A stretch of 64,000 nucleotides of DNA from Flavihumibacter profundi. GTDB lineage: Bacteria > Bacteroidota > Bacteroidia > Chitinophagales > Chitinophagaceae. The notes beneath the pieces were generated by a model. It was not told the DNA's origin. It saw only the letters and a program-made list of their open reading frames with translations, and searched no databases. Where the stretch lies: assembly GCF_020076305.1 (NCBI RefSeq), contig NZ_JAIQXE010000004.1, forward strand, positions 248,001 through 312,000, given 5' to 3'. A program made the position numbers and the translations under genes. Within the stretch, counting starts at the first letter, position 1. Each line of letters begins with the position of its first letter. Of this stretch, positions 11,715-32,179 are shown piece by piece.

Positions 11715-11740
11715 CTTTTGTTACCTTATTGTATTGTTAA

Positions 11741-13039: not shown

Positions 13040-13096
13040 GATGTTAGCTTTGATAGCTACAAATTGCTGGTAATTATTAAATTATCCAAATACATT

Positions 13097-13927: not shown

Positions 13928-13940
13928 CTTGAGTAGACAG

Positions 13941-14903: not shown

Positions 14904-14941
14904 GGCAAGTCGTTTTTAAAATGACAATGTAATTTAGGCAT

Positions 14942-14984
14942 AAAAAAACATTGGGCAGATATAGGATTACCTAACTGCCCAATG
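14942..14984 (-). terminator. Rho-independent terminator after isomerase-like lipoprotein gene
   Basis: A perfect 10-bp stem, CATTGGGCAG (14949-14958) with CTGCCCAATG (14975-14984), encloses a 16-nt loop and on the minus strand is followed by seven T (14942-14948). It sits 31 bases after the stop of the gene ending at 15015 and separates that gene from the isomerase/ThuA operon. This is the clearest intrinsic terminator in the window. Confidence 0.85.
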
Positions 14985-15014
14985 ATTCAACTTTATGGAA
15001 AAATTTCCTGTTTA

Positions 15015-15917: not shown

Positions 15918-16084
15918 AATGCAGTATTTATTATTTGAGGAAGAAAGATAAATAATTTCTGTACACGGGCTGCAAAGCCCATTTGTAAATGCCTGGCTAA
16001 ACGCACAATCGTTTGCGTTCAATGGTTTCCCATATTTCACGGTAAATAACGTAAATTCCAGTACTACTAAATTAATATAGAACC
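15918..16084. promoter_or_regulatory. Divergent promoter region between isomerase lipoprotein and the 14-gene operon
   Basis: This 167-base region must hold promoters for both directions. On the minus strand, TATCTTTC near 15944-15951 fits the Bacteroidota -7 box (TAnnTTTG with one change), with a TTTG about 22 bases upstream. A GGGCTTTGCAGCCC palindrome sits in the middle and could be an operator. For the plus strand I do not see a convincing box. Confidence 0.35.
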
Positions 16085-16546
16085 ATGCAAACACAACGCA
16101 GATCACTCTTAAAAAATCTAATGGCATTAGTAGCAGGGGTAGCCGGTGTTGGTTTAAGCGCCAAAGCCATGGGTAATCCCACTGCTGAAAAAGAATCGGG
16201 TAATATAGCCTACGACCAGGAAATACCCTTGTTTTCGGGGCACACCAAACTCGGGAATATGGTATTTATCGCAGGCAAAGGCGCCCATTTTGCTGGTGAT
16301 ATTGTGGCGCATACCGATCACGTTTTAAAGGAACTGGAGAAAGAACTTTTACTGGCAGGGTCTTCCATGGAAAAAGTATTAAAAGTAACCGTCTACCTGA
16401 ATGACATTGCTGATTATAAAGCTATGAATGATACCTACAAAGGTCGTTTTGGAAAAAATCCACCAGTTCGTTCTACCATTGCCGTTGCAAAAGGTGGTGT
16501 TCCCGGCGATTCACTGGTAGAAATGGATTGCATTGCTTACATCTAA
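16085..16546 (+). CDS. RidA family enamine/imine deaminase with export signal
   Basis: A 153-residue protein. Residues 1-30 (MQTQRRSLLKNLMALVAGVAG...) have a twin-arginine-like motif and hydrophobic core. Residues from about 40 are a RidA/YjgF/UK114 domain: ARG-containing PPVRSTIAV holds the conserved catalytic Arg and VEMDCIAYI the C-terminal Glu. RidA hydrolyses reactive 2-enamines and imines released by PLP-dependent lyases to 2-keto acids and ammonia. Cytoplasmic RidA has no signal peptide, so an exported form is unusual. It heads a tightly spaced operon with three exported SelA-like PLP enzymes, which would be the source of such intermediates. The first ATG (16085) is chosen because it includes the RR motif. 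Confidence 0.88.
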   Translation: MQTQRRSLLKNLMALVAGVAGVGLSAKAMGNPTAEKESGNIAYDQEIPLFSGHTKLGNMVFIAGKGAHFAGDIVAHTDHVLKELEKELLLAGSSMEKVLKVTVYLNDIADYKAMNDTYKGRFGKNPPVRSTIAVAKGGVPGDSLVEMDCIAYI

Positions 16547-16584
16547 GCAAGGTGGTTGGGTCTTTTCACCAATAAAATTTTTAC

Positions 16585-17808
16585 ATGAAACGCAGAGAAA
16601 TACTAAAAGGGATATCATTGCTACCATTCGGAACTGGAATCGTGGCTGCAGTAGCTCCCTTAACCACGGCAAAAGCTGCCGGCAAAGCCAACGGCCGTAA
16701 CCTCTTCAGCGAATTGGGTGTGCGCACATTTATCAATGCAGCAGGCACTTATACAGCCATGACCGGTTCCCTGATGCGGGATGAAGTTATAGAAGCCATT
16801 CAAAGCGCATCCAGGGACTTTTGCATGCTTGATGAACTGCAGGATAAAGTGGGCGAAAAAATTGCCAGCCTTGTCCATTCAGAATCTGCAGTGGTTACCG
16901 CAGGCTGTTTTTCTGCAATGACACTCGGACTGGCCGGGGTTCTTACAGGAATGGACCAAAAGAAAGTTGAAATGTTGCCTAACCTTGATGGCAGTGGCAT
17001 GAAATCAGAAGTGATCATCCAGAATGGACATAATATTGGTTATTCCCATGCGCTTACCAACACCGGCTGCAAAATTATTTTTGTTGAAACCATTGCCGAT
17101 GTGGAAAAGGCTATCAATGAAAAAACTGCCCTGCTATGGTTCCTGAATGTACAATCAGATAAAGGCAGTATAACACATGAACAATGGGTTGCACTTGGAA
17201 AAAAATTCCATATCCCAACCATGATTGACATTGCGGCCGATGTGCCACCGGTGAGTAACCTGTGGAAATTTCACGACATGGGATTTGACCTGGTTTGTAT
17301 TTCTGGCGGTAAAGCCATGCGTGGTCCGCAAAGTGCAGGATTACTTATGGGCAGGAAAGACCTGATAGCTGCTGCCCGATTGAGTATGCCGCCCAGGGGA
17401 TCTACTATTGGCCGCGGCATGAAAGTAAATAAGGAAGAAATACTGGGCATGTATGTGGCGCTCGAACATTTTATTCACAATGATCATGAGAAAGAATGGA
17501 AGGAATGGGAGAGCCGCATTAGTACTATTGAGCGCGCAGTTAAACCTTTTAAAGGCCTGACCACAGAAGTAAAAGTACCAACCCTTGGAAATGTAACACC
17601 TACCCTGCATATTACCTGGGATAGTACAGCCATTAAACACACCACCAAAACCCTGCAGGAAAATCTGCGGAATGGCAACCCCTCAATTGAAGTGATCGGA
17701 AATGGCGATAACCACATCACTATTACTGCCTGGGTAATGAAAGCTGGCGATGAAAAAATTGTTGCATCCCGGTTAAAAGAAGAGTTCACTAAAGCAATAT
17801 CTGTTTAG
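16585..17808 (+). CDS. SelA-like PLP enzyme (DgaE/EF_0838 type), Tat-exported, paralogue 1
   Basis: A 407-residue fold-type I PLP enzyme of the SelA-related group that includes D-glucosaminate-6-phosphate ammonia-lyase DgaE. The start MKRREILKGISLLPFG is a Tat signal. FINAAGTYTAMTGSLM, AVVTAGCFSAMTLGL, MIDIAADVPPV and the PLP lysine segment SGGKAMRGPQSAG (K243) are seen. It is not a selenocysteine synthase: there is no selB or tRNA-Sec nearby and it is exported. The likely reaction is beta-elimination of water and ammonia from a 2-amino-3-hydroxy acid to a 2-keto-3-deoxy acid. It most resembles paralogue 3 at 25513-26724 (same length and same motif variants). It lies 38 bases after ridA and 21 before the next gene. 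Confidence 0.85.
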   Translation: MKRREILKGISLLPFGTGIVAAVAPLTTAKAAGKANGRNLFSELGVRTFINAAGTYTAMTGSLMRDEVIEAIQSASRDFCMLDELQDKVGEKIASLVHSESAVVTAGCFSAMTLGLAGVLTGMDQKKVEMLPNLDGSGMKSEVIIQNGHNIGYSHALTNTGCKIIFVETIADVEKAINEKTALLWFLNVQSDKGSITHEQWVALGKKFHIPTMIDIAADVPPVSNLWKFHDMGFDLVCISGGKAMRGPQSAGLLMGRKDLIAAARLSMPPRGSTIGRGMKVNKEEILGMYVALEHFIHNDHEKEWKEWESRISTIERAVKPFKGLTTEVKVPTLGNVTPTLHITWDSTAIKHTTKTLQENLRNGNPSIEVIGNGDNHITITAWVMKAGDEKIVASRLKEEFTKAISV

Positions 17809-17829
17809 TCTAAAAATCCTGTATTTATT

Positions 17830-19569
17830 ATGCAATACATTCTTCGGTTAAGGCTATTGTTGGCTGTTGTTATTTTGTTTTCCCAATGTACCGGGCGCAA
17901 GGGTTTACCACCTGGTGATCCCAATAATGGCGGCCTCTTTTTGCCTGGCAACTTTGAAGCAGTAATAGTGGCTGACAGTATTGGATCTGCCAGGCACCTG
18001 GCAGTTACGGATAACGGGGATATTTATGTAAAACTCAGAAGTACTTATCCTGAAGGGGGTAATGTTGCCCTTCGGGATGAAGACAATGATGGCAAGGCCG
18101 ATATCATCAAAAAATTTGGCAAATACGTTGATGAAGAGAGTTATGGAACCGCCATGCGCATTTATAATGGTTACATATATTTTAGTTCTGCAAGTACTGT
18201 TTACAGGACTAAACTTACGCCCGGCCAACTGGTTCCTGATGACAATATTGAAGTTGTCCTTACCGATGATTTCCGCCATGACCCGCATGGATACCAGCAT
18301 ATTGCCAAGCCGGTAACCTTCGACGAAAATGGCAATATGTATGTACCCTTCGGAGCACCCTCAGATGTTTGCCAGGTGATGGACAGGATCCCTGAGTCAC
18401 CCGGACAAATGCCTTGTCCTGAGCTGGAAGAACACGGCGGAATCTGGAAATTTGATGCCAATAAACTGAACCAGACCATTAAAGATGGCAAACGATATGC
18501 AACTGGTATAAGGAGTGCTGTTGCCATTCACTGGAACCACAAAGAAAACTGTTTATATATAGTGCAGCATGGCAGGGATGATTTGCACAGGACATGGCCT
18601 GCGAAATATACCCGCTGGCAAAGTGCATTATTGCCTTCGGAAGAATTCCTGCAAATCAGGGAAGGCGCAGATGCCGGATGGCCATATTATTATTATGACC
18701 AGATTCAGCAGAAGAAACTACTAAACCCCGAATATGGCGGCGATGGTAAAACAGAAGCCGACAGCAGCAAATACCTGCTGCCTATGATTGGGTTCCCTGC
18801 CCACTGGGCACCAAATGACTTGTTTTTTTATACAGGCGATCAGTTTCCCGAGCGATATAAAAATGGGGCTTTCATTGCATTCCATGGCTCCACAATTCGC
18901 GGTCCTTATTCCCAGTCCGGTTATTTTGTCGGGTTTGTACCCTTTAAAGACGGGAAGCCTTCGGGACCTTGGGAAGTATTTGCAGATGGGTTTTCAGGTA
19001 TGGATACCATTGTAAATACCAGCGATGCCGCTGGCCGCCCAATGGGGATAGCCATGGGCCCGGATGGATCATTGTATATCAGTGATTCAAAAAGAGGCCG
19101 GATATGGCGCATCATGTATAAAGGCGATAAACAAACATTCGGCGCGGCAGAACTAGCGGCCATGGAAAAACGAAAAATGGTGGCGCATATCAGGACTCCC
19201 GATGAAGTTGCAGACAATCTCGAAAAAGGGGAAATGGCCGGTGGTGAAAAAATATATTCCATGTATTGTATTGCATGCCACCAAAAGGACGGGAAAGGCG
19301 ACAATAGCCGATTCCCGGCATTGGATAGTTCTGATTGGGTAAATGGAGATCCGAAAAGGCTGATCAATGTTTTGCTGAATGGCCTAAATGAACCCATTAA
19401 AGTCAGTGGCCGGACCTTCACCGGGCTTATGCCGAAGCACAGCTTTTTATCAGATACAGACATTGCCCTGGTATTGACTTACATCAGGCAAAACATGAAT
19501 AACAAATCAGGCCCGATTACCGCCGAGGAAGTTGCCAGGGAAAGAAATAAAACATCAGCAAAAAAATAA
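17830..19569 (+). CDS. Sugar-dehydrogenase-like beta-propeller lipoprotein with C-terminal cytochrome c, copy 1
   Basis: A 579-residue lipoprotein. The signal peptide ends in FSQC, so it is probably lipid-anchored. Residues about 40-450 form a six-bladed propeller of the PQQ-dependent sugar/sorbosone dehydrogenase (GDH-B like) type, with repeats such as NGDIYVKLRS, FDENGNMYVPFGAPS, AIHWNHKENCLYIVQHGRDDLH, and PMGIAMGPDGSLYISDSKRGRIWRIMYKG. The last ~110 residues are a cytochrome c domain with CIACH (C480-H484) and a distal Met in LMPKHSF. It would oxidise a sugar or hydroxy compound outside the cytoplasm and pass electrons to its own heme. A close paralogue lies at 23735-25501. PQQ use is not proven. 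Confidence 0.85.
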   Translation: MQYILRLRLLLAVVILFSQCTGRKGLPPGDPNNGGLFLPGNFEAVIVADSIGSARHLAVTDNGDIYVKLRSTYPEGGNVALRDEDNDGKADIIKKFGKYVDEESYGTAMRIYNGYIYFSSASTVYRTKLTPGQLVPDDNIEVVLTDDFRHDPHGYQHIAKPVTFDENGNMYVPFGAPSDVCQVMDRIPESPGQMPCPELEEHGGIWKFDANKLNQTIKDGKRYATGIRSAVAIHWNHKENCLYIVQHGRDDLHRTWPAKYTRWQSALLPSEEFLQIREGADAGWPYYYYDQIQQKKLLNPEYGGDGKTEADSSKYLLPMIGFPAHWAPNDLFFYTGDQFPERYKNGAFIAFHGSTIRGPYSQSGYFVGFVPFKDGKPSGPWEVFADGFSGMDTIVNTSDAAGRPMGIAMGPDGSLYISDSKRGRIWRIMYKGDKQTFGAAELAAMEKRKMVAHIRTPDEVADNLEKGEMAGGEKIYSMYCIACHQKDGKGDNSRFPALDSSDWVNGDPKRLINVLLNGLNEPIKVSGRTFTGLMPKHSFLSDTDIALVLTYIRQNMNNKSGPITAEEVARERNKTSAKK

Positions 19570-19579
19570 AACCGTTCAT

Positions 19580-21181
19580 ATGAAACGTAGAAACTTAATG
19601 AAGGGATTGGGCTTGCTGCCATTAGCAGGTGTAATGGCTCCATTTAAATCAGTTTTTGCAGCACCGGAAACAGGACTCGCTGCAGAACAGAATATTTTTC
19701 AATCCATTGGCGTAGAACCAATAATTAATTGCCGGGGTACATTCACTATTATAGGCGGTTCAATTGAGCGGGTCGAAGTACGTGCAGCAATGGAAGCCGC
19801 CTCAAAGAATTTTGTACAATACGATGAAATGGCAGATGCCATCCATAAAAGGCTCGCGGAAATAACAGGCGCTGAATGGGCCCTGGTTTCTGCGGGATGT
19901 GCTGCCGGATTAAAACATGTAACCGCAGCCTGCGTAACAGGGGGGAACCCGGAAAAACTTATCCGGATCCCTGACCTAACCGGTTTTGATAAAACAGAAG
20001 TAATCATCCCTTCTTCTTCCCGTAACGTATATGATCACGCGATAAGGAATATCGGAGTTCGGGTCATCACAGTAGATAACCTTGATGAAATGGAAAAAGC
20101 GATTAATTCTCATACAGCAATGATCTACCTGATGGCTTTCGACGAAGCCCAAACCGGTAATGAATTTACACTTGCCAATGTATCTAAGATTGCAAAACTC
20201 AAAAATATCCCCGTATTGATTGATGCTGCTGCAGAAGTGCTGACCATTCCAAATGTACACCTGCAGCGTGGCGCTGATATTGTGGCCTATAGCGGCGGTA
20301 AAGCAATCTGCGGTCCACAGTGTGCGGGATTAATAATAGGCAAAAAAGATATATTAATGTCGGCCTGGCAGGCAAGTTCTCCGCACCATGGCCCAGGTCG
20401 CGATAATAAGGTTGGCCGGGAAGAAATGATGGGGATGCTGGCTGCAGTAGAAGCCTGGACCAAACGTGATCATGCTGCTGAATGGAAAACCTGGCTCTCC
20501 TACCTGGCCAACATTTCAAAAAAATTAACCAGTATTCCGGGGGTTACAACTTCAGTATTTGAACCAACGGAATTGTCTAACCGCTCACCTGTATTGAATG
20601 TATTCTGGGATCCGGCAAAATTTAATATTACCGGTGCTGAAATGGCCGAAGTATTGGGAAGAACAAAACCCCGTATTGCAGTTGGCAGTAACGACAAAGA
20701 CGGACAGTCTGCAATTGATATAACAACAGGCCAAATGCAACCAGGTAATGATACCATTGTGGCTAACCGGGTTTATGAAGTACTGCTGCAAAAACGAACA
20801 CCAAAGCCAGCTATGCAGGGTGCATCTTTTAACCTTACGGGCCGCTGGGATGCTACTATCCAATTCTTCAGCAGTACCAGCAGGCACAGTTTATTCCTGG
20901 AACAGGATGGCAATTGGCTGCAGGGTATTCACCAGGGAGATTTTTCAACACGCGAAATAAAAGGCAGCCTTGAAGGTGATGCCATCAAATTGAAAAGTGT
21001 GGTGCGTCAACCAGCTGATTTTGTAACCTTCATTTTTACCGGCAAAGCATCTGCTGATAAGATTACCGGTGATATTTATATGGGAGAATACCGGACTGCG
21101 ACTTTCACAGCAGTAAGGATAAATAAAAAACCACCTCACGAACAGATCATGGTTCCGGGTGGACCACCATTGGCTACATAA
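19580..21181 (+). CDS. SelA-like PLP enzyme, Tat-exported, with extra C-terminal beta domain (paralogue 2)
   Basis: A 533-residue protein. I start at ATG 19580 (MKRRNLMKGLGLLPLAG), a Tat signal, rather than 19532, which would overlap the upstream gene. Residues about 40-410 are the SelA-like PLP fold, with INCRGTFTIIGGS, ALVSAGCAAGLKH, LIDAAAEVLTIP and the PLP lysine in SGGKAICGPQCAG (K241). It differs clearly from paralogues 1 and 3: CRGTF instead of AAGTY/AAGNY, DEMADAIHKRLAEITG instead of ..QDKVG. After about residue 425 follows a roughly 100-residue beta-rich domain (FNLTGRWDATIQFF, LEQDGNWLQGIHQGDF, SADKITGDIYMGEY) that the other two lack. Such domains recur at the end of secreted Bacteroidota proteins and may bind ligand. 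The reaction is probably a lyase step on a related substrate. Confidence 0.85.
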   Translation: MKRRNLMKGLGLLPLAGVMAPFKSVFAAPETGLAAEQNIFQSIGVEPIINCRGTFTIIGGSIERVEVRAAMEAASKNFVQYDEMADAIHKRLAEITGAEWALVSAGCAAGLKHVTAACVTGGNPEKLIRIPDLTGFDKTEVIIPSSSRNVYDHAIRNIGVRVITVDNLDEMEKAINSHTAMIYLMAFDEAQTGNEFTLANVSKIAKLKNIPVLIDAAAEVLTIPNVHLQRGADIVAYSGGKAICGPQCAGLIIGKKDILMSAWQASSPHHGPGRDNKVGREEMMGMLAAVEAWTKRDHAAEWKTWLSYLANISKKLTSIPGVTTSVFEPTELSNRSPVLNVFWDPAKFNITGAEMAEVLGRTKPRIAVGSNDKDGQSAIDITTGQMQPGNDTIVANRVYEVLLQKRTPKPAMQGASFNLTGRWDATIQFFSSTSRHSLFLEQDGNWLQGIHQGDFSTREIKGSLEGDAIKLKSVVRQPADFVTFIFTGKASADKITGDIYMGEYRTATFTAVRINKKPPHEQIMVPGGPPLAT

Positions 21182-21190
21182 ATAAATATT

Positions 21191-22468
21191 ATGAAACTGC
21201 TGAATACGATTGGGCATTTGCTGCTCATCTGTTTTGTTTGGGTGTTGGGTACTGAACCTGTTCATGCGCAGCAATTTGATCTGCTGCTAAAGGGCGGCCA
21301 TGTCATCAGCGCCAAGAATAAGCTTGATACAAAAATGGATGTTGCGGTTACCGGCGGCAAAATCGCATTGGTTGAAAAAGACATTGACGTTAAAAAAGCA
21401 AAGCAGGTAATTGATGTTTCAGGCATGTATGTTACGCCGGGTATTATTGACATGCACGTGCATGTGTTCAACGGAACCGATGTAGACTCGTATATAGCAA
21501 ATGGATTGACCAGTTTACCGCCGGATGGTTTTACTTTTCGTGCCGGCGTAACAACTGTTGTGGATGCTGGATCATCTGGCTGGAGAAATTTCAGGCAGTT
21601 TAAAAAACAGACCATCGATAAAGCCGAAACCCGTGTGCTGGCCTTTCTGAATATTGTCGGAACAGGCATGTATGGCAGGTTTGAAGAACAGGATACCAGT
21701 GATATGAACCCGCAGCAAGCGGCTTATATGATCAAAAAACTTTACCCTAAAATCATCGTTGGAATTAAAGCTGCTCACTATTGGGGCGGTTTTACGCAGG
21801 TTGATAAGGCTGTAGAGGCCGGCAACCTGGCAAATGTTCCGGTGATGGTTGATTTTGGTGAACATGATCCTCCTAATTCAATTGAATCACTCTTCATGCA
21901 ACACCTGAGACCAGGTGATATATTCACACATACATTTTCTTATGGCCCTAAAGGGCGGGAAACCGTTGTTGATGAAAACGGGAAAGTAAAGCCCTTTATT
22001 TTTAAAGCACAGGAAAGAGGGATCATTTTTGATGTTGGCCATGGCGGCGGTGCATTTTCCTGGAGACAGGCTGTACCGGCTGCCCGGCAAGGATTCTGGC
22101 CTAACGTGATCAGTACCGACCTTCATGCAGAAAGTATGAATGGAGGCATGAAAGACCTCAGTAACGTGATGTCAAAATTTTTAGCCTTGGGTATGCCGCT
22201 GAAGGATGTTATACTCAGGACCACCTGGAACCCGGCACAGGTAATAAAGCGGGAGGATTTGGGTAATCTCGATACTGGTTCAGATGCAGACATTGCCGTA
22301 TTCAGCCTAAGGCAAGGAAATTTCGGATTTCTCGATATCCGCAAAACTACATTCAAAGGAACCCAAAAACTGGAAGCAGAATTAACCATCCGTGCAGGTA
22401 AAATAGTCTGGGACCTAAATGGCATCAGCGCACCTGGCTGGGAAGAGGAACTGAAGAATAATAAATGA
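21191..22468 (+). CDS. Amidohydrolase of the cog3964 deacetylase group, exported, copy 1
   Basis: A 425-residue amidohydrolase-superfamily enzyme with a signal peptide ending VHAQQ. Related to EF_0837/Atu3266, which are encoded next to SelA-like genes in other bacteria and are mis-annotated as dihydroorotases; the tested member removes acetyl groups from small hydroxy acids. Metal-site segments: DMHVHVF (HxH), IVGIKAAHY (bridging carbamylated Lys), DIFTHTF, and STDLHAES (Asp). At the strand-5 position, where relatives have MVH, this protein reads MVDFGEHDPP. It lies 9 bases after SelA-like paralogue 2 and overlaps copy 2 by 4 bases (ATGA). A role in removing an N-acyl group before the PLP step is an inference. 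Confidence 0.85.
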   Translation: MKLLNTIGHLLLICFVWVLGTEPVHAQQFDLLLKGGHVISAKNKLDTKMDVAVTGGKIALVEKDIDVKKAKQVIDVSGMYVTPGIIDMHVHVFNGTDVDSYIANGLTSLPPDGFTFRAGVTTVVDAGSSGWRNFRQFKKQTIDKAETRVLAFLNIVGTGMYGRFEEQDTSDMNPQQAAYMIKKLYPKIIVGIKAAHYWGGFTQVDKAVEAGNLANVPVMVDFGEHDPPNSIESLFMQHLRPGDIFTHTFSYGPKGRETVVDENGKVKPFIFKAQERGIIFDVGHGGGAFSWRQAVPAARQGFWPNVISTDLHAESMNGGMKDLSNVMSKFLALGMPLKDVILRTTWNPAQVIKREDLGNLDTGSDADIAVFSLRQGNFGFLDIRKTTFKGTQKLEAELTIRAGKIVWDLNGISAPGWEEELKNNK

Positions 22469-23745
22469 TAAAAAGGCAAGCATATTATCCCCCTGGTACC
22501 GTCCTGAAATGGATACCCCGCGAACTTTTTTTGTTGCTTGTGGGGGCATTGATGAACATGTTGTGTTTCGCACAACCTTATGACCTGCTGATTAAAAATG
22601 CCCATATGATTGATCCGAAAAATCATATCAATGGCAAAATGGACCTGGCTGTCACAAATGGAATGATTTCAAAAGTAGCGAAGGAAATACCGGCTATGCA
22701 ATCAAAAAAGACTATCGATGCAGGTGGCCTCTATATTGTACCAGGATTGATTGACATGCACACCCATGTATTCGTTGGCCCGGAACCTGAAAAATTTGCC
22801 GATGGCCAGTACAGTGTTTCGCCTGATGATTTCAGTTTCCGAAGTGGCGTAACTACTGTGGTTGATGCCGGTACCTCTGGCTGGCATAATTTCCCCCAGT
22901 TCAAAGGCCAGGTGATCGATCATATGAAAACAAGGGTACTGGCTTTCCTGAACATCAACGCGAACGGACTCAGCGGAAAGCCTGATGAAGAAGATGTAAC
23001 CAAAATGATTGTTGATTCTGCAGTACAGATGCAGAAAAAATTTCCAGGCATCATTGTAGGAATAAAAATCGGTCACTATGAAGGCAGCGATTGGACACCG
23101 TTTGACCGTGCCCTGGAAGCAGCTGCTATTACACATACACCGCTTTTTGTTGAGTGTCATTTACCAAAATATAGTTTACAGGACCAGTTGCATAAAATGC
23201 GGCCAGGTGATATTATCACGCATAGCTATGAACAAATCCCGGAAAGGATGGCCGTGGTTGATGAAGCCGGAAAGCTGCGACCCTTTGTACTTGAGGCTAA
23301 ACAAAAAGGTATTCTTTTCGACCTCGGGCATGGCGGCGCGGGTTTCTGGTTCAGCCAGGCAATACCTGCTTTTAAACAGGGACTGGCACCCAATTCCTTT
23401 GGAAGTGACCTGCACCGTTTTAGTATGAATGCCGGCATGAAAAGCATGACCAACATCATGTCAAAATATATGGCCATTGGTATGCCACTGGAAGATGCTA
23501 TTGTAAGGGCAACCTGGAATCCGGCATTATCTATCCATAGGCCAGACCTTGGAAACCTTAGCGAAGGTACTGTGGCAGACATCACCCTATTACGTGTTTT
23601 GAATGGCAGATTCGGTTACATGGACGCTGGTGGTTATAAACTGGAAGGCAATCAAAAACTGGAAGCTGAATTAACCATTCGCGCAGGAAAAATAGAATGG
23701 GACCTGAATGGGTTAGCTGCCCGGGAAATATACCATGAAAAATAA
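22465..23745 (+). CDS. Amidohydrolase of the cog3964 deacetylase group, exported, copy 2
   Basis: A 426-residue paralogue of the preceding gene. The N-terminus is longer, with MIKRQAYYPP before the hydrophobic core LFLLLVGALMNMLCFAQP; an internal Met before the core could be the true start, but the ATGA overlap at 22465 favours coupling. Segments: DMHTHVF, IVGIKIGHYEG (Lys), DIITHSYEQ, GSDLHRFS, and DLGHGGAGFWF. At strand 5 it reads LFVECHLPKYS, different from the two other copies, so its pocket probably fits a different acyl compound. It ends 11 bases inside the next gene, the second dehydrogenase-cytochrome. Confidence 0.83.
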   Translation: MIKRQAYYPPGTVLKWIPRELFLLLVGALMNMLCFAQPYDLLIKNAHMIDPKNHINGKMDLAVTNGMISKVAKEIPAMQSKKTIDAGGLYIVPGLIDMHTHVFVGPEPEKFADGQYSVSPDDFSFRSGVTTVVDAGTSGWHNFPQFKGQVIDHMKTRVLAFLNINANGLSGKPDEEDVTKMIVDSAVQMQKKFPGIIVGIKIGHYEGSDWTPFDRALEAAAITHTPLFVECHLPKYSLQDQLHKMRPGDIITHSYEQIPERMAVVDEAGKLRPFVLEAKQKGILFDLGHGGAGFWFSQAIPAFKQGLAPNSFGSDLHRFSMNAGMKSMTNIMSKYMAIGMPLEDAIVRATWNPALSIHRPDLGNLSEGTVADITLLRVLNGRFGYMDAGGYKLEGNQKLEAELTIRAGKIEWDLNGLAAREIYHEK

Positions 23746-25501: not shown

Positions 25502-25512
25502 ATTACAACAAT

Positions 25513-26724
25513 ATGAAGCGTAGAGATATCCTTAAAACAATTTCGATGCTGCCACTGGCAGGAAGCCTTGCTCCCATTTCCAGCGTCTTTGCTGCACCAA
25601 AACCGAAAAGAAATGTATTTACTGAACTTGGCTTACGCACATTCATCAACGCAGCCGGCAACTATACGGCCATGTCGGCTTCATTAATGCCGCCTGAAGT
25701 GATGGAAGCCATTAACCAAAGTGCAACAGAATATGTAATGCTGGAAGAGGTGCAGGATAAAGTAGGTGCAAAAATTGCGGCCATGTGCCACGCGGAGGCT
25801 GCTATGGTTACAGCTGGTTGCTGGTCGGCCATTGTATTGGGAACTGCCGGTGTGATTACTGGTAAAGACCCTGATAAAATAAAAAAACTGCCAAATCTTT
25901 CAGGCTCCGGAATGAAGTCAGAAGTGATCATCCAGAAAGCACATATGGTAGGTTATGAACATTCTGTTACGAATACAGGCGCAACAATAATTGCCGTGGA
26001 AACAGCAGCAGAAGCGGAAAATGCCATTACCGAAAATACGGCTATGATGTGGTTCCTGAACAGGGAAGCGCCATCTGGTAAAATAACCCACGAAGCATGG
26101 TTGCAAATTGCCAGGAAACATAATATTCCCACTATGATTGACCTGGCTGCAGATGTGCCTCCTGTCGAAAATTTATGGAAGTATAATGATATGGGCTTCG
26201 ACCTCGTGGCCATTTCCGGCGGTAAAGCCATGTGCGGCCCTCAGAGTACGGGTATCCTGATGGGCAAAAAAGAACTGATCGCTGCCGCCAGGCTAAATGG
26301 TCCGCCAAACGGCGGAAATATTGGCCGCGGTATGAAAGTTAATAAAGAGGAAATTATTGGGATGTATGTGGCCATGGATGCTTACATCAAAAGGGATCAC
26401 CAGAAAGAATGGAAAATGTGGGAAGACAAAATTGCCTATATAGACAATTCCATCAAAAAAATACCTGGCGTTACCACAGAAATTGTTATTCCGCCTGTTG
26501 CCAACCATAACCCTTCGCTGATGATCGCCTGGGATAGCCAAAAAATCAGGCTGACAAAGGAAAGCCTTGGTGAAAAACTGCGTAAGGGCACACCTTCCAT
26601 CGAAACTATATCCTGGGAAAAAGACAATAGCATCAGGATCACTGTATTTATGCTGAAACCCGGACAGGAGAAAATTGTTGCCAGCAGGATTAAAGAAGAA
26701 TTATTAAAAAATTCAGCCTCATGA
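25513..26724 (+). CDS. SelA-like PLP enzyme, Tat-exported, paralogue 3
   Basis: A 403-residue PLP enzyme with the Tat signal MKRRDILKTISMLPLAG. The sequence follows paralogue 1 nearly throughout: FINAAGNYTAMSASLM, EEVQDKVGAKIAAM, MKSEVIIQKAHMVGYEHSVTN, MIDLAADVPPVENLWKYNDMGFDL split around the turn, PLP lysine in SGGKAMCGPQSTG (K238), and NIGRGMKVNKEEIIGMYVAMD. It lacks the C-terminal beta domain of paralogue 2. It overlaps the next amidohydrolase by 4 bases. As with paralogue 1, a dehydratase/deaminase reaction on a 2-amino-aldonic acid is the best guess from family members such as DgaE. Confidence 0.85.
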   Translation: MKRRDILKTISMLPLAGSLAPISSVFAAPKPKRNVFTELGLRTFINAAGNYTAMSASLMPPEVMEAINQSATEYVMLEEVQDKVGAKIAAMCHAEAAMVTAGCWSAIVLGTAGVITGKDPDKIKKLPNLSGSGMKSEVIIQKAHMVGYEHSVTNTGATIIAVETAAEAENAITENTAMMWFLNREAPSGKITHEAWLQIARKHNIPTMIDLAADVPPVENLWKYNDMGFDLVAISGGKAMCGPQSTGILMGKKELIAAARLNGPPNGGNIGRGMKVNKEEIIGMYVAMDAYIKRDHQKEWKMWEDKIAYIDNSIKKIPGVTTEIVIPPVANHNPSLMIAWDSQKIRLTKESLGEKLRKGTPSIETISWEKDNSIRITVFMLKPGQEKIVASRIKEELLKNSAS

Positions 26725-27980
26725 AAAAAATAAATGTTTTACTACTTCTACTGATTAGCTTTTTCGGAACATCAACCCTTGCCCAGCAATATGATATTGT
26801 CATCAAAAGTGGACATGTAATTGACCCCAAAAACAATGTCGATGCAGTGATGGATATCGCCATTAAGGATGGGAAAATCGAAAAGATCGCTGATAATATT
26901 GATGGGAAACAGGCCGCTCAAACGGTTGATGCAAAAGGATTGTATGTAACCCCTGGCATCATTGATATCCACGCCCATGTGTTTTTCGGGACTGAGCCTG
27001 ACCATTACCTTAGTAACGGACTTGTAGCTGTGGTTCCCGATGGTTTTACATTTCGGGTTGGCGTTACAACTGTTGTTGATTGTGGCGGTGCCGGATGGAA
27101 ATCTTTCCCGGTTTTTAAAAAAAATATTATTGACAATTCACAAACCAGGGTCCTGTCATTCCTGAACATTGTTGGGGAAGGCATGCGTGGCGGCGCCTAC
27201 GAGCAGGATATCAATGACATGGATCCAAAGCTCACAGCAATGGTTGCCAAACAATACAAGGATATTATCGTTGGTTTTAAAGTGGCCCATTTCTCAGGCC
27301 CTGAATGGATCCCCGTTGACCGTGCCGTTGAAGCTGGCAAACTGGCCAATATGCCTGTAATTGTTGACTTTGGTGGCAACACCCCGCCCCTTTCCATTGA
27401 GGAATTGTTTATGAAGCATCTTCGTCCGGGTGATATTTATACACATACCTACACCTTACTGGAAGGAAATGTCCGGGAAACTGTGGTAGATACAGCTACC
27501 AATAAAGTGAAGCCATTTATCTGGGATGCAAAGAAGCGTGGAATTATTTTCGATGTTGGTTATGGTGGTGCCAGTTTTAATTTTACACAGGCCATACCTT
27601 CACTCAAAGCGGGTTTCTATCCGAACACCATCAGCACCGACCTTCATACCGGCAGTATGAATGCATCAATGAAAGACCAGTTGGCCGTAATGTCTAAATT
27701 CTTATTAATGGGCATGCCTTTAAATGAGGTGATCAAAGCCAGTACCTGGACACCAGCACAAGTCATCCACCATGAAGAATTAGGGAACCTGTCAATTGGT
27801 GGCATTGCAGATATAGCCATCCTGAATTTAAGGCAGGGAGATTTTGGCTTTTATGACAAGACCGGCTACAAAGTGCAGGGCAAACAAAAATTCGAATGTG
27901 AGGTAACCATAAAGGGTGGTAAAATTGTATACGACCTGAATGGTAAAGCAGATCCCATTTACCCAAAAGCAAAAAAATAA
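26721..27980 (+). CDS. Amidohydrolase of the cog3964 deacetylase group, exported, copy 3
   Basis: A 419-residue paralogue of the amidohydrolases at 21191 and 22465, with signal peptide MKKINVLLLLLISFFGTSTLAQ. Metal-site segments: DIHAHVFFG, IVGFKVAHFSG, DIYTHTYTLL, STDLHTGS. Strand 5 reads VIVDFGGNTPP, so like copy 1 it has Asp where relatives have His. It seems closer to copy 1 than to copy 2 (GMYVTPGIID/GLYVTPGIID, DGFTFR.GVTTVVD). It is coupled to SelA-like paralogue 3 by the ATGA overlap and followed after one base by the SMP-30 gene. Confidence 0.84.
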   Translation: MKKINVLLLLLISFFGTSTLAQQYDIVIKSGHVIDPKNNVDAVMDIAIKDGKIEKIADNIDGKQAAQTVDAKGLYVTPGIIDIHAHVFFGTEPDHYLSNGLVAVVPDGFTFRVGVTTVVDCGGAGWKSFPVFKKNIIDNSQTRVLSFLNIVGEGMRGGAYEQDINDMDPKLTAMVAKQYKDIIVGFKVAHFSGPEWIPVDRAVEAGKLANMPVIVDFGGNTPPLSIEELFMKHLRPGDIYTHTYTLLEGNVRETVVDTATNKVKPFIWDAKKRGIIFDVGYGGASFNFTQAIPSLKAGFYPNTISTDLHTGSMNASMKDQLAVMSKFLLMGMPLNEVIKASTWTPAQVIHHEELGNLSIGGIADIAILNLRQGDFGFYDKTGYKVQGKQKFECEVTIKGGKIVYDLNGKADPIYPKAKK

Positions 27981-27981
27981 G

Positions 27982-28896
27982 ATGAGACAAAGATATATTA
28001 CCGGTGCATTGATGATAGCCATCACCATGATAGCATGCAAAAACGCCAGGCAAAAAGGAACTGAACAAGAGGTATACAGGACATCTGACTTAACAGCAGA
28101 CAGTAGTTTTACTAAGGGAGCAGAAGGACCGGCAGTAGATAAGGATGGAAATATTTATGCGGTCAACTTTGCCAGGGAAGGTACGGTTGGCATCATAACA
28201 CCTGAAGGTGCTGGTCGCATCTTTAAGGAATTACCAAATGGAAGTGTTGGTAATGGCATTCGTTTCAACAGTAAAGGCGAGATGCTGATTGCAGATTATA
28301 CCAACCACAATATCTTAAAAGTAGCGATGACCGATACTAACCAGGTATCAGTTTACGCACACGACTCTACCATGAGCCAGCCAAATGATATTGCCATTGA
28401 CAGTAAAGACCGGCTCTATGCAAGTGACCCAAATTGGAAAGCCGGAACGGGCCGCATTTGGCGCATTGATACCAACGGCACCGTTAATTTGCTGGAAGAT
28501 AGTATGGGAACCACGAATGGCATTGAAGTGAGTCCGGATGAAAAAATATTATACGTTAATGAATCGGTACAACGAAAAGTGTGGGCCTATGACCTTTCAG
28601 CAAATGGTGAGATCTCCAACAAGCGATTACTGATTAGTTTTCCGGACTTTGGTATGGACGGCATGCGTTGTGACATACAGGGCAATTTGTACATTACAAG
28701 ACACGGAAAAGGAGTTGTGGCAAAAGTTTCGCCCGAAGGGAAGTTATTAATGGAAATTAGTTTAAAAGGAAAACTGCCCAGCAATATAGCCTTTGGCGGT
28801 CCCGATGGCAAAACAGCCTATGTTACTTTACAGGACCGCGGTAATATAGAACAATTTTCTGTTGAAGCACCAGGCCGGGAATGGAAGAAGAAATAG
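27982..28896 (+). CDS. SMP-30/gluconolactonase-like lipoprotein
   Basis: A 304-residue beta-propeller of the SMP-30/gluconolactonase/LRE family. Start at ATG 27982 gives a lipoprotein signal (MRQRYITGALMIAITMIAC). Family segments: FTKGAEGPAVDKDGNIYAVNF split by turns, LIADYTNHNILKV, SQPNDIAIDSKDRLYASDPNW, GTTNGIEVSPDEKILYVNES, and GMDGMRCDIQGNLYITRHGKG, which hold the Glu, Asn and Asp residues that bind the metal in SMP-30 proteins. It would open sugar lactones to aldonic acids, the step after a sugar dehydrogenase, which fits the two dehydrogenase-cytochromes upstream. Confidence 0.87.
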   Translation: MRQRYITGALMIAITMIACKNARQKGTEQEVYRTSDLTADSSFTKGAEGPAVDKDGNIYAVNFAREGTVGIITPEGAGRIFKELPNGSVGNGIRFNSKGEMLIADYTNHNILKVAMTDTNQVSVYAHDSTMSQPNDIAIDSKDRLYASDPNWKAGTGRIWRIDTNGTVNLLEDSMGTTNGIEVSPDEKILYVNESVQRKVWAYDLSANGEISNKRLLISFPDFGMDGMRCDIQGNLYITRHGKGVVAKVSPEGKLLMEISLKGKLPSNIAFGGPDGKTAYVTLQDRGNIEQFSVEAPGREWKKK

Positions 28897-28923
28897 GTGA
28901 TATACATTTCAAATCAAAATTTC

Positions 28924-29847
28924 ATGAGATATACTGTATTGCTTGCACTCATTTTTCTTTTAGGGTCAGGTGTGAAATTAAGGGCCCAGACCATGTCGAA
29001 AGATGAGCTTATATTTTTGACCGGCGAATGGAAAGGGGAACGATTTGCCGATGGAAGGCCAAAAATACCAGCGGACCTTATAGAACGCGCAAAGAAAATC
29101 GGCATTGAAGAAGCATGGACTGTTTTAAAAAATGAAGGATACAAGAACCAGTTTGAAGGCAACTGGAAAATGGTGAATGATTCCGTAAAAGTAGTAGGCC
29201 GGGTGGTCACTGCACAATTTATGCCCAGCAGGCCCGATGTGGAAATGAAGATCAGGGAACGCGGAAAAAAAGAAGGGCGGAAAGGCAATACCAACGCCTG
29301 GCCAATTGAAGTGTTGACAAAAGGCGATGTATATGTAGCCGATTGCTTTGGAAAGATTGCACAGGGAACACTGATCGGTGATAACCTGGGAAATTCCATA
29401 TTCGCCAAAACCGGTAATGGGGTAATATTTGATGGCGCGGCACGGGATTTATCCGGCCTTGCTGAAATTAAAGGTTTCAACGCTTTTGTGCGTGATTTTG
29501 ATCCTTCCTACCTTGAAGACGTAGTGTTGATGGGATTAAACACTCCCATCCGGATCGGAGGCGCTATTGTGTTGCCTGGCGACCTGGTGATCTCAGAAAG
29601 GGAAGGCGTACTTTTTATCCCGGCACACCTTGCAGAAAAAGTAATCGGCATTTCAGAATTCATTACCGTAAAGGACAAGTTTGGGCATGCAATGCTTAAA
29701 TCAGGCAAATATTCACCCGGACAAATAGACAACCAATGGACTGATGAAATAAAAACAGCGTTCCTGCAATGGTTGCAACAGAACCCCGGGGAAACCCAAT
29801 TAACAAGAGCCCAGCTCGATGAATTCCTGAACAAAAGAACCTGGTAA
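28924..29847 (+). CDS. RraA-like aldolase family protein, exported
   Basis: A 307-residue protein with a signal peptide (MRYTVLLALIFLLGSGVKLRAQ). A GTG at 28897 is in frame, but ATG 28924 gives the cleaner signal. Residues from about 140 on form the RraA/HMG-CHA aldolase fold: LIGDNLGNSIFAKTGNGVIFDGAARD contains, in separate blocks, the GDNLGNSI loop and the DGAARD motif whose Arg and Asp bind the keto acid and metal in 4-hydroxy-4-methyl-2-oxoglutarate aldolases. IVLPGDLVISEREGVLFIP follows as the family C-terminal signature. An N-terminal extension of about 100 residues is extra. Retention of the RD pair argues for a real metal-dependent retro-aldolase making pyruvate, not just an RNase E regulator. 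Export is unusual for the family. Confidence 0.85.
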   Translation: MRYTVLLALIFLLGSGVKLRAQTMSKDELIFLTGEWKGERFADGRPKIPADLIERAKKIGIEEAWTVLKNEGYKNQFEGNWKMVNDSVKVVGRVVTAQFMPSRPDVEMKIRERGKKEGRKGNTNAWPIEVLTKGDVYVADCFGKIAQGTLIGDNLGNSIFAKTGNGVIFDGAARDLSGLAEIKGFNAFVRDFDPSYLEDVVLMGLNTPIRIGGAIVLPGDLVISEREGVLFIPAHLAEKVIGISEFITVKDKFGHAMLKSGKYSPGQIDNQWTDEIKTAFLQWLQQNPGETQLTRAQLDEFLNKRTW

Positions 29848-29850
29848 ATT

Positions 29851-30960
29851 ATGCAATTGCACAAAATATTATTAATCATTGCGGCCATTTGCGGCGCCAC
29901 CGGATTGGCTATGATATTAGGTGGACAAATCGTTAATGCAGGCCCCTTATTTATTTTATTCTTCATCCTGCTGGCCTTTGCCTTTCGGGGTTACCCACAC
30001 CTGAAAGGATTTTCCTTTACTGTTTCCATTTTTGCTGCCGTAACAACTGCCTTATTTTATCCCGGGCCCTTCGTTGAAATGAATGGATTTGTGTTTGCTA
30101 CTCTCCTCACGCCACTTATACAACTCATCATGTTCGGCATGGGAACCTCCATGAGTTTCGATGATTTTGCCGGGGTGTTAAAAATGCCGAAAGGTGTCCT
30201 TATCGGAGTTGTCAGTCATTTTATAATCATGCCTTTACTCGGATTCACAATAGCCAATTTAAGTGGCCTTCCACCTGAAATTGCGGCTGGAATTATTTTA
30301 ATAGGCTGTTCCCCAAATGGTACTGCTTCCAATGTAATCTCCTATCTCGCCAAAGCCAACCTGGCCTTATCAATCACTATTACGGCAATCTCAACTATGC
30401 TCGCCCCTTTTATTACACCATTCCTCATGAAATTCCTGGCTGGTGCATTTATAAAAATAAATGTATGGGCTATGATGTTTGATATTTTCAAGATTGTAAT
30501 TGTTCCAATAGTAGCAGGATTATTGTTTAATAAATTCCTGAGTGGTAAAGTGAAATGGCTCGATAAAGCCATGCCATTGGTTTCTATGTTTTCCATCACT
30601 TTTATCATTGTGATTATAACTGCCGCCGGCAGGGATAATTTACTGAGTATTGGTCCGGTTCTGCTACTCGCCGTCCTTATCCATAATTTAACAGGCTATA
30701 CGCTAGGTTATTGGAGCGGCCGTTTGTTCAGGATGAGTGAACGCGATTGCCGGACTATTGCCATTGAGGTGGGCATGCAGAATGCCGGACTTGCATCCGG
30801 ATTAGCCAAGGGTATGGGTAAGATGGCTACCGTAGGCCTGGCGCCAGCGATCTTTGGACCATTGATGAATGTTACCGGATCAATTCTTGCTTCTTACTGG
30901 CACCGTAAGCCACCCATCGATCGGGAAGCAACAATACAGGAACCAATCTTATCTCAATAA
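29851..30960 (+). CDS. Bile acid:sodium symporter (BASS) family transporter
   Basis: A 369-residue membrane protein with about ten hydrophobic helices. The BASS family signs are the MFGMGTSMSFDDFAGVLKMP stretch after helix 3 (read in two blocks), IILIGCSPNGTASNVISYLAKAN, a sodium-site motif, and IAIEVGMQNAGLASGLA in the second half. Family members move organic anions with Na+, including bile acids, pantoate and pyruvate. Placed 3 bases after the exported RraA-like aldolase and upstream of ppdK, it may bring the keto-acid product of the periplasmic steps into the cell. That substrate is inferred only. Confidence 0.9.
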   Translation: MQLHKILLIIAAICGATGLAMILGGQIVNAGPLFILFFILLAFAFRGYPHLKGFSFTVSIFAAVTTALFYPGPFVEMNGFVFATLLTPLIQLIMFGMGTSMSFDDFAGVLKMPKGVLIGVVSHFIIMPLLGFTIANLSGLPPEIAAGIILIGCSPNGTASNVISYLAKANLALSITITAISTMLAPFITPFLMKFLAGAFIKINVWAMMFDIFKIVIVPIVAGLLFNKFLSGKVKWLDKAMPLVSMFSITFIIVIITAAGRDNLLSIGPVLLLAVLIHNLTGYTLGYWSGRLFRMSERDCRTIAIEVGMQNAGLASGLAKGMGKMATVGLAPAIFGPLMNVTGSILASYWHRKPPIDREATIQEPILSQ

Positions 30961-30983
30961 CATATCAAGAAAATACTACAATA

Positions 30984-31412
30984 ATGAAATCATTTGTACT
31001 TTCCTTATGCTGCTTACTCTTAATAACAGTTGATGCATCATCCCAATCCAAAGAAGAGACGGATTTAGCTGATGTATGTAAGGCCTTCAATAAAGCCATG
31101 ATTGATGCAGATAAAAGCAAACTGGAAAAACTCACGCTAAAAACATTAAGCTATGGGCATTCCAGTGGGCTGGTTGAAAACCAAACCCAGTTTATTACTG
31201 CACTTGTTAACGGCACCATTGATTTTACAAATATTGATATTACTGACCAGACCATCCAGGTTTCCGGAAAGGATGCGATCGTGAGAAATACATTCAAGGG
31301 CACATTACTAAAAGATGGTAGCCCCTTCGAATTAAAGATCGGGCTGTTAATGGTTTGGAAAAATGTCAAAGGAAACTGGCAGTTATTTGCCAGGCAAGGA
31401 TATAAATTATGA
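30984..31412 (+). CDS. NTF2-like/DUF4440 domain protein, exported
   Basis: A 142-residue secreted protein with signal peptide MKSFVLSLCCLLLITVDASSQ and a SnoaL/DUF4440 cone fold: VCKAFNKAMIDADKSKLEKL, then LSYGHSSGLVENQTQFITAL and WKNVKGNWQLFARQGYKL. Such proteins bind small molecules in a pocket; some are isomerases, many have no known reaction. Its stop overlaps the start of the next gene by 4 bases. It may assist the pathway of this operon. Confidence 0.8.
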   Translation: MKSFVLSLCCLLLITVDASSQSKEETDLADVCKAFNKAMIDADKSKLEKLTLKTLSYGHSSGLVENQTQFITALVNGTIDFTNIDITDQTIQVSGKDAIVRNTFKGTLLKDGSPFELKIGLLMVWKNVKGNWQLFARQGYKL

Positions 31413-32179
31413 ATATGAAATGCTACAGGTTGCTTATTTGCTGCACAGTTATTGTGTTGCAGCAAACCTTATTGTATGCCCAAACAGCTAACCCTTCATT
31501 ATCAGTAAAAAAAACAGGCGACTTCGCTATAACAGGAAAAGGAACTGCACATAATTGGGCCAATACAGAATGGGTCAGTTTACAACAACGCGACAGTAAG
31601 ACACTGAGAAATAACCAGTGGAACATTCCATTGGAACGTGATAATATTACAGATATCCAATACAAAACAAGTTTCAAAATCCTTTACTCAGACAAAGGAG
31701 TTTATTGTTTGTTCAGCTGTGAAGACAGTTTGATAACAGCCACTTTAAAGGAGGACTATTCCAATATCTATGATGAAGATGTTGTGGAAGCATTTTTCTG
31801 GCCCGACCAGGCAATGCCGCTCTATTTTGAATATGAACTATCGCCTTTAAATGTTGAGTTGCCGATACTGATTGTCAACAATTCAGGCAAAATAATGGGC
31901 TGGAAACCCTGGATGTACACCGGTGAAAGAAAGACAATTCATGCCATCCATATTGACGAAAATAAGACAGCTGGTAACCGGATCAGCTGGACCGCAGAAA
32001 TCTTTATTCCTTTCTCTTTATTAACACCATTGGGAAATGTGCCCCCGGTAAAAGGAACTAAATGGCGCGCAAATTTTTACCGGATAGATTACGATCGCAA
32101 ACCAGCATATACAAGCTGGCAATTAACACGCCAGAGTTACCATGATTATGTAAAATTTGGCACCATTGTGTTTGAGTAG
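31409..32179 (+). CDS. Carbohydrate-binding family 9-like protein, exported
   Basis: A 256-residue secreted protein with signal peptide MNMKCYRLLICCTVIVLQQTLLYAQ. The body is CBM9-like: TSFKILYSDKGVYCLFSCED, DEDVVEAFFWPD, YFEYELSPLNVELPI and the closing WRANFYRIDY...WQLT pattern. CBM9-like stand-alone proteins in Bacteroidota often lie with sugar-acid or uronate genes. It is the last gene of the tightly spaced run begun by ridA. A role as a surface or periplasmic sugar-binding protein is likely. Confidence 0.82.
   Translation: MNMKCYRLLICCTVIVLQQTLLYAQTANPSLSVKKTGDFAITGKGTAHNWANTEWVSLQQRDSKTLRNNQWNIPLERDNITDIQYKTSFKILYSDKGVYCLFSCEDSLITATLKEDYSNIYDEDVVEAFFWPDQAMPLYFEYELSPLNVELPILIVNNSGKIMGWKPWMYTGERKTIHAIHIDENKTAGNRISWTAEIFIPFSLLTPLGNVPPVKGTKWRANFYRIDYDRKPAYTSWQLTRQSYHDYVKFGTIVFE

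Follow-up and report, generated by a model that had tools for sequence, protein, structure and literature searches.

A conserved 14-gene operon of Flavihumibacter profundi as a candidate extracytoplasmic catabolic line for oxidised N-acyl hexosamines

We describe an operon of 14 plus-strand genes in Flavihumibacter profundi (Bacteroidota; Chitinophagaceae) that, on balance, probably serves to break down oxidised N-acyl hexosamines outside the cytoplasm. The operon occupies positions 16085-32179 of the window, that is, the whole 64,000-nucleotide stretch of DNA that was analysed (contig NZ_JAIQXE010000004.1, positions 248,001 to 312,000 of the forward strand), in a source genome of 4.87 Mb that is divided into 6 contigs and has a stated completeness of 100%. 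In Limnovirga soli (G126), a member of another genus of the same family, the complete set of 14 genes is collinear, with identities of 44-83%, and hence the gene arrangement is beyond chance.

The pathway that we propose, in which the substrate, the order of steps and every activity were read from the observed gene order, export-type N-termini, conservation, active-site residues and linked genes, would run as follows. A GSDH-type dehydrogenase fused to cytochrome c would oxidise a free N-acetylhexosamine at C1 and deliver the electrons to the respiratory chain, an SMP-30 lipoprotein would open the resulting lactone, and cog3964-type amidohydrolases would remove the acyl group to give the free 2-amino-aldonate. 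Lyases dependent on pyridoxal 5'-phosphate (PLP), exported through the twin-arginine (Tat) system after being folded and loaded with PLP in the cytoplasm, would then eliminate the C3 hydroxyl of the 2-amino-aldonate and, lacking the proton-donor His of the related enzyme DGL, would release an enamine, which an exported RidA would convert to 2-keto-3-deoxy-aldonate and ammonia. An RraA-like aldolase may split the 2-keto-3-deoxy acid, and a BASS transporter would import the 2-keto acid; in relatives, import would be served by a D-galactonate-family transporter of the major facilitator superfamily (MFS), with DgoK and a KDPG-type aldolase inside the cell. The duplicate gene copies may serve epimers or other acyl forms.

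If correct, this model would place an entire catabolic route outside the cytoplasm, PLP-dependent elimination and enamine hydrolysis included. Oxidised amino sugars would then be served by a further set of enzymes besides DgaE and the Ong pathway (below), and Bacteroidota genes that now probably carry the names of distant relatives (e.g., selenocysteine synthase or dihydroorotase) would gain a function. An earlier reading of this operon (hereafter the original prediction) had proposed a similar line; its coherent, exported and conserved gene set and its outline from a hexosamine to a 2-keto-3-deoxy acid stand, while DgaE membership of the PLP enzymes and the participation of PpdK do not, and pyruvate is only one of the likely cargoes of the importer.

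Operon structure and conservation

Gene families were assigned with Pfam and NCBIfam models (scores in bits), which bore out the families originally named: RidA, three PLP enzymes, two GSDH-cytochrome c proteins, three amidohydrolases, SMP-30, RraA-like, BASS, DUF4440 and CBM9_2. The genes are numbered g1 to g14:

g1, 16085..16546, plus strand: RidA family imine/enamine deaminase, Tat-type export (PF01042 67.4 bits, cut-off 27.3; RR signal)
g2, 16585..17808, plus strand: SelA/DgaE-like PLP enzyme, Tat-type; proposed 2-amino-aldonate ammonia-lyase (TIGR01437 177 bits, cut-off 385)
g3, 17830..19569, plus strand: GSDH-type (PQQ family) sugar dehydrogenase fused to cytochrome c, exported (PF07995 and PF00034)
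g4, 19580..21181, plus strand: PLP enzyme, Tat-type, with an extra C-terminal beta-strand-rich domain at about residues 421-513 (TIGR01437 145 bits)
g5, 21191..22468, plus strand: cog3964-type amidohydrolase, exported; proposed N-acyl-hexosaminate deacylase (NF006689 455 bits, cut-off 371; beta-5 ligand Asp)
g6, 22465..23745, plus strand: cog3964-type amidohydrolase, exported (NF006689 401 bits, cut-off 371; beta-5 ligand Glu)
g7, 23735..25501, plus strand: second GSDH-cytochrome c (PF07995, PF00034)
g8, 25513..26724, plus strand: SelA/DgaE-like PLP enzyme, Tat-type (TIGR01437 183 bits; PLP Lys238)
g9, 26721..27980, plus strand: cog3964-type amidohydrolase, exported (NF006689 451 bits)
g10, 27940..28896, plus strand: SMP-30/gluconolactonase-like lactonase, lipoprotein; start probably 27985 (PF08450 149 bits)
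g11, 28897..29847, plus strand: RraA-like aldolase, exported; probable start 28924 (PF03737 62.5 bits, cut-off 24.5)
g12, 29851..30960, plus strand: BASS/PanS-like importer; proposed cargo the 2-keto acid product (PF01758 144 bits, over cut-off)
g13, 30984..31412, plus strand: DUF4440 protein, exported (PF14534 48 bits)
g14, 31409..32179, plus strand: CBM9-like (CBM9_2) protein, exported (PF16011 39 bits)

The coordinates of the open reading frames (ORFs) confirm the predicted packing, with gaps of at most 38 bases or overlaps throughout: 38 bases between g1 and g2, 21 (g2-g3), 10 (g3-g4) and 9 (g4-g5), then overlaps at g5-g6 and g6-g7, 11 bases at g7-g8, overlaps at g8-g9 and g9-g10 (the latter becoming a gap of 4 bases if the g10 Met is at 27985), 0 bases at g10-g11, 3 at g11-g12, 23 at g12-g13 and an overlap at g13-g14. 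Because g2/g8 (59% identity), g3/g7 (62%) and g5/g6/g9 (46-56%) are paralogues, the operon looks as if built from repeated PLP-amidohydrolase-dehydrogenase modules; g2 and g4 share 37% identity. A promoter and terminator scan gave counts at shuffle level (40 vs. a mean of 39.1, and 21 vs. 19.4), and no operon boundary is claimed from it.

The same exported gene set was searched for in other Bacteroidota, as originally suggested, and was found, collinear in Limnovirga soli, where one extra exported RidA-type gene lies between the g3 and g4 counterparts, and shuffled but recurrent in Bacteroidota and Balneolota. The named loci, which are the best 80 of at least 507 confirmed matches, comprise 77 from Bacteroidota, 2 from Balneolota (Fodinibius) and 1 unassigned. 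The operon is a patchy, accessory trait: counting the source genome each time, a g8 homologue at E <= 1e-30 was present in 7 of 296 genomes of a phylum sample, and a match to a relative's PLP protein at E <= 1e-60 in 25 of 396 genomes of an order sample, in which 4 of the 5 genomes shown from the genus of the source carry a PLP homologue.

Locus content was assessed on the 60 named loci of at least 20 kb and on 19 of 20 order-sample loci, those of at least 12 kb. The samples overlap (G591 is L074, G655 is L090 and G126 is L104, while L029 and L106 overlap on one contig), some named loci share one genome, and the loci are related, so that co-occurrence counts give no proper probability; where a relative's copy is truncated or split (L020, L072, L088), it was kept as is, with its ORFs translated unjoined. 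Amidohydrolases occur in 54 of the 60 loci, GSDH (either kind) in 45, RidA (either kind) in 43, CBM9 in 25, BASS in 22, SGL or Lactonase in 22 and RraA in 10; the corresponding numbers among the 19 order-sample loci are PLP enzyme 18, amidohydrolase 18, RidA 17, RraA 13, GSDH 13, BASS 11 and lactonase 10. The next same-strand gene is an amidohydrolase after 71 of 119 PLP or PLPext genes (80 named loci), and GSDH is present in 21 of the 22 loci with a lactonase vs. 24 of the 38 without (60 related loci).

The PLP enzymes and RidA

PLP enzyme residues were counted on 126 distinct rows of 370-650 amino acids, from 135 labelled (119 PLP, 16 PLPext), L104 being omitted here and from the amidohydrolase rows as it comes from the same genome as G126. 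With DGL (7lc0) as reference, the Schiff-base Lys is kept in 126/126 rows (chain position 213; Lys-217 in the DGL paper) and the column of the carboxylate residue Arg226 holds K or R in 118/126, whereas His163 is kept in 0/126 (106 of them gaps), His162 in 2/126 and an HH pair near the loop in 3/126. The phosphate Arg triad of DGL is likewise missing (R301 kept in 1/126, R332 in 4/126 and R346 in 0/126). Paired family scores, the first of each pair being TIGR01437 (cut-off 385), were 177/139 bits for g2, 145/135 for g4 and 183/153 for g8. The missing His163, the missing triad and the scores under the cut-off rule out DgaE membership; what survives of the SelA/DgaE-like assignment is the superfamily with its PLP Lys. 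The absence of the triad would fit an unphosphorylated extracellular substrate, and the model predicts a DgaE-like clade for such substrates with a changed active site.

In the DGL study, the H163A variant of the enzyme is still active and releases an enamine, a behaviour that its authors link to RidA (PMC9529869). A PLP lyase without the proton-donor His should release free enamine, which would explain the presence of an exported RidA. We tentatively, and with considerable doubt, suggest that RidA is here a true pathway enzyme, not a repair enzyme, one that finishes the reaction in a compartment where the toxic enamine would be kept away from the PLP enzymes of the cytoplasm. This would give RidA a testable pathway role, and such a hand-over could also explain OngD, the RidA of the cytoplasmic Ong pathway. 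The g1 protein keeps the Arg and Glu (aligned with 2dyy) that we take to be catalytic in RidA, and tblastn detected g1-like RidA in 66 of the 110 related loci. A further family of exported RidA-type proteins (PF14588/PF01042) is present in 23 of the 80 named loci, often just before the PLP gene (e.g., L028 2722-3255, L018 16516-17049 and L023 10191-10751); no ORF of the window operon was recognised as a member, though the closest syntenic relative has one.

The structural model of g4 is poor, with a mean predicted local distance difference test score (pLDDT) of 60.8 (63-87 in ten-residue blocks of the tail), and was used only for the tail and the closest folds, which are 8t7j (Cap15) and 7lc0 (DGL). 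For the C-terminal domain that PLPext proteins carry (about residues 421-513 of g4, eight strands in the model), Pfam gave no hit at E <= 0.001. An alignment of 14 PLPext members shows the domain to be conserved, and in four related loci the PLPext gene has a DUF4440 gene after it.

Export signals

Signal calls were made with a home-made rule, not SignalP, and the rule may choose among start codons. It called Tat signals for g1, g2, g4 and g8, Sec signals for g5, g9, g11, g13 and g14, and a lipoprotein signal for g10, i.e., 10 clear signals; g3, g6 and g7 have a hydrophobic N-terminus with no site accepted by the pattern (a Cys follows directly in g3 and g7), and g12 is a membrane protein. By the same rule, 13 of 31 other window ORFs of at least 150 amino acids were called exported, i.e., export alone is common here, and positives among cytoplasmic controls were 0/9 for DgoK, 3/9 for KDPG aldolase, 2/22 for ECF sigma factors and 1/6 for MlrC. 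Relatives were called Tat-type in 51/53 RidA and 108/119 PLP proteins, and Sec-type in 108/129 amidohydrolases and 13/16 RraA proteins. Two Arg stand in the columns of g8 Arg3-Arg4 in 124/126 PLP rows, and residue 3 of DGL aligns with profile position 40 of the exported PLP clade, which therefore carries an added N-terminus. TatC was found in the source genome. Tat export of the cofactor enzyme, with Sec or lipoprotein export of most others, is what would be expected if PLP is loaded before export.

Amidohydrolases and dehydrogenases

On 117 distinct amidohydrolase rows of 330-700 amino acids (from 129 labelled), the set of HxH, Lys, beta-6 His and beta-8 Asp, which we take to be the metal ligands, was kept in, as counted, 117, 117, 115, 117 and 117 of 117 rows. 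The beta-5 position holds Asp in 111 rows, Glu in 6 and His in 0, compared to His in 4 of 4 solved relatives. The beta-5 Asp/Glu marks the exported amidohydrolase clade. The AlphaFold model of g9 (pLDDT 85.5) has 8je0, 2ics, 8wzy and 2ogj as best folds, of which 2ics is presumably EF_0837 and 2ogj presumably Atu3266. The window enzymes thus share with the cog3964 amidohydrolases a common family (NF006689 over cut-off) and the HxH, Lys, His and Asp positions, but unlike the solved relatives they carry a signal peptide and a beta-5 Asp/Glu. For GSDH, His163, Arg238, His257, Arg259, Asp260 and Trp294 (g7 numbering) and the CxxCH motif are invariant in the 55 rows longer than 480 amino acids (from 58).

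Product, import and substrate

The product of the line is likely a 2-keto-3-deoxy sugar acid, because in relatives a PLP lyase stands in the place of the DgoD dehydratase. The De Ley-Doudoroff galactonate route consists of DgoD, DgoK, KDPGal aldolase and DgoT. DgoK and a KDPG/KHG-type aldolase accompany the PLP gene in 9 of the 80 named loci, and an MFS transporter does so in 7 of 80; one DgoK (PF05035), one aldolase (TIGR01182 over cut-off) and three of the seven MFS proteins were scanned against family models, the rest being grouped by BLAST, and the best model of the three scanned transporters was the D-galactonate transporter family, below cut-off. These genes adjoin the exported PLP-amidohydrolase pair: DgoK lies directly after the amidohydrolase in 6 of the 9 DgoK loci (L048, L059, L062, L066, L072 and L076), with gaps of 26-53 bases in L048, L062 and L076. 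No DgoD-like dehydratase was seen in the locus DNA of 7 of the 9, where the PLP lyase would take its place. The predicted keto-deoxy acid product is thus supported by the linked kinase, aldolase and D-galactonate-family transporter, the last of which also follows RraA in L147 and L148. The source organism has a separate cluster of an MR_MLE dehydratase, DgoK and KDPG-type aldolase elsewhere (L113 7192-10035) and can probably handle 2-keto-3-deoxy-galactonate inside the cell.

As to import, the BASS family of g12 was confirmed, but its predicted pyruvate cargo was not: since, of the NCBIfam models, g12 comes closest to that of the ketopantoate importer PanS (NF047939, 258 bits, under the cut-off of 400), 2-keto-3-deoxygluconate (KDG), a 2-keto-4-hydroxy acid, would be as likely a cargo as pyruvate. 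PpdK had been thought to act on the imported product. Its gene adjoins the operon at 32296-35049, yet no tblastn match (E <= 1e-10) was found in any of the 110 related loci, and we rule it out as a pathway partner.

With respect to the substrate, a GH20 beta-N-acetylhexosaminidase gene lies between the amidohydrolase and SGL genes in L029 and L145, two relatives of the window operon, and this place inside the cluster favours hexosamines. The originally proposed N-acetylglucosamine-type substrate is therefore kept as far as its hexosamine source is concerned, with glucosaminate vs. galactosaminate not to be told apart.

Evidence against the proposed pathway and alternative explanations

Several observations weigh against the pathway proposed here. 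The change of the beta-5 ligand makes the activity of the amidohydrolases uncertain. Amidohydrolases are absent from 6 of 60 loci, and some clusters carry sulfatases or MlrC/gamma-glutamyltransferase instead. No recognised RidA of any kind was found in 17 of 60 loci. RraA was found by tblastn in only a minority of related loci (27 of 110). The g11 protein has the predicted family and catalytic RD (both GD and RD motifs are kept when aligned with 3noj; NF006093 105.5 bits, under the cut-off of 208), and its aldolase role is putative; in E. coli, RraA also acts as a regulator that is not an aldolase. A search for PqqC gave no match in the source genome, but it had no positive control and nothing is concluded from it. 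Such genomes are rich in GH20 (the source genome gave 10 matches), which weakens evidence from a single neighbour. The DgoK-linked loci represent about two lineages in the PLP tree (a clade of seven rows and the Daejeonella group), and the nine hold RidA (either kind) in 1, a lactonase in 1 and GSDH in 6, with two of them, L069 and L075, having a DgoD-like gene. The DgoK/MFS and RraA/BASS routes are not significantly exclusive (Fisher p = 0.39), L066 having both. Finally, for g2 and g4 the oxygenase Cap15 is a slightly closer match than DGL, while g8 is closer to DGL (all 24-28% identity); DGL and Cap15 share 43% with each other.

Alternatively, the operon might break down N-acyl-D-amino acids (acyl-D-serine or acyl-D-threonine from the envelope or lipids) by amidohydrolase, PLP deamination and RidA, with GSDH, lactonase and RraA serving a separate substrate. 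We consider this improbable: to our knowledge, characterised cog3964 enzymes act on N-acetyl-D-amino acids, and GSDH was not recognised in 15 of 60 loci, but the linkage to DgoK, KDPG-type aldolase, D-galactonate-family MFS and GH20 points to sugar acids, and lactonase and GSDH co-occur with the PLP-amidohydrolase pair. It is also possible, albeit unlikely, that the same logic applies to another amino sugar derivative, e.g., sulfated or uronic sugars, C1-oxidised oligomers or bacterial 2-amino sugars, with the operon copies differing in substrate. The presence of SusC in 27, SusD in 19 and sulfatases in 8 of the 60 loci would be consistent with such substrates, as would the three diverged PLP/amidohydrolase copies (g2-g4 identity 37%) and the CBM9-like proteins, but GH20 and the DgoK-type product route fit plain hexosaminates, and the Pfam scans, which covered 20 window proteins, showed neither a polysaccharide lyase nor a lytic polysaccharide monooxygenase.

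The remaining alternative concerns the PLP chemistry. Cap15 is an O2-dependent PLP enzyme (PMC7497351), and by analogy the PLP enzymes could use O2 to decarboxylate a beta-hydroxy-alpha-amino acid (e.g., hexosaminate) to a one-carbon-shorter carboxamide, which the amidohydrolases would convert to acid and ammonia. Since g2, g4 and g8 are about equally far from DGL and Cap15, sequence similarity by itself does not decide between elimination and oxygenation; Cap15 is the second-best family sequence match (147 vs. 186 bits for DGL) and, in 8t7j, the top fold hit for g4, whose model is poor. The oxygenase route is nonetheless very unlikely in our opinion, as it would leave RidA, DgoK and the KDPG-type aldolase without a function and 7 of the 9 DgoK loci with no dehydratase seen to make the 2-keto-3-deoxy acid, and as Cap15 retains the Arg triad, together with a His at the His163 position, both of which the exported enzymes lack, 106 of 126 PLP rows being nearer to DGL. 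That is, the context (RidA, DgoK, aldolase, no dehydratase) favours elimination over oxygenation.

Relation to known systems

Among the closest known systems is the Ong oxidative chitin pathway of a marine Pseudoalteromonas, in which N-acetylglucosaminate is deacetylated and deaminated to KDG in the cytoplasm after SSS import, and in which the cluster RidA is needed for growth, its role being left open by the authors (PMC9537276). N-acetylhexosaminate deacetylation, deamination to a KDG-type acid and a RidA in the cluster are common to both; in contrast, the Ong pathway is cytoplasmic, OngC is annotated as a D-amino acid deaminase, and the passages on the cluster mention KdgK but no GSDH, SMP-30 or RraA. 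OngB is a subtype V (Cys/His/His) amidohydrolase (PMC12017989), unlike the window enzymes with their cog3964-type HxH/Lys/His/Asp set and export-type N-termini. The window system would thus be the same idea as Ong with other enzymes and in another compartment. The original statement that no periplasmic version is described is narrowed by this: no description of an exported version of an amino-sugar-acid pathway was found in the top-ranked open-licence PMC literature, from which absence from print does not follow, but the cytoplasmic Ong pathway does the same chemistry.

Compared to DGL/DgaE, the window PLP enzymes share the superfamily, the Schiff-base Lys and the basic carboxylate residue, and would be expected to share water elimination with ammonia release; they differ from DGL (25-27% identity) in lacking His162/His163 and the Arg triad, in the Tat-type N-terminus and in the unphosphorylated substrate that is expected. 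PvdN, which is Tat-exported, is likewise a PLP enzyme outside the cytoplasm, but it serves siderophore making, whereas the window enzymes would belong to a nutrient pathway with RidA.

Variant clusters and neighbouring genes

In L031, L041, L043, L050, L063 and L084, the exported PLP enzyme lies beside MlrC (M81), gamma-glutamyltransferase and a Tat-type protein, the scanned member of which had no Pfam or NCBIfam match; the cluster of L041 also holds another RraA-like protein. In L034, L037 and L040 (Cyclobacterium, Lunatimonas), exported PLP genes adjoin sulfatases with no amidohydrolase in the locus, perhaps reflecting a sulfated substrate. Shortened or split PLP and amidohydrolase ORFs at L020 8059-8739, L072 11227-12371 and L088 2105-3364 perhaps represent decay or assembly errors.

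The divergent minus-strand neighbours of the operon (window 9492-16127) encode two AP_endonuc_2 TIM-barrel proteins, ThuA, a beta-lactamase-family protein and a GH36 alpha-galactosidase, and ThuA homologues are also found near the PLP genes of Larkinella (L083, L094 and L099).

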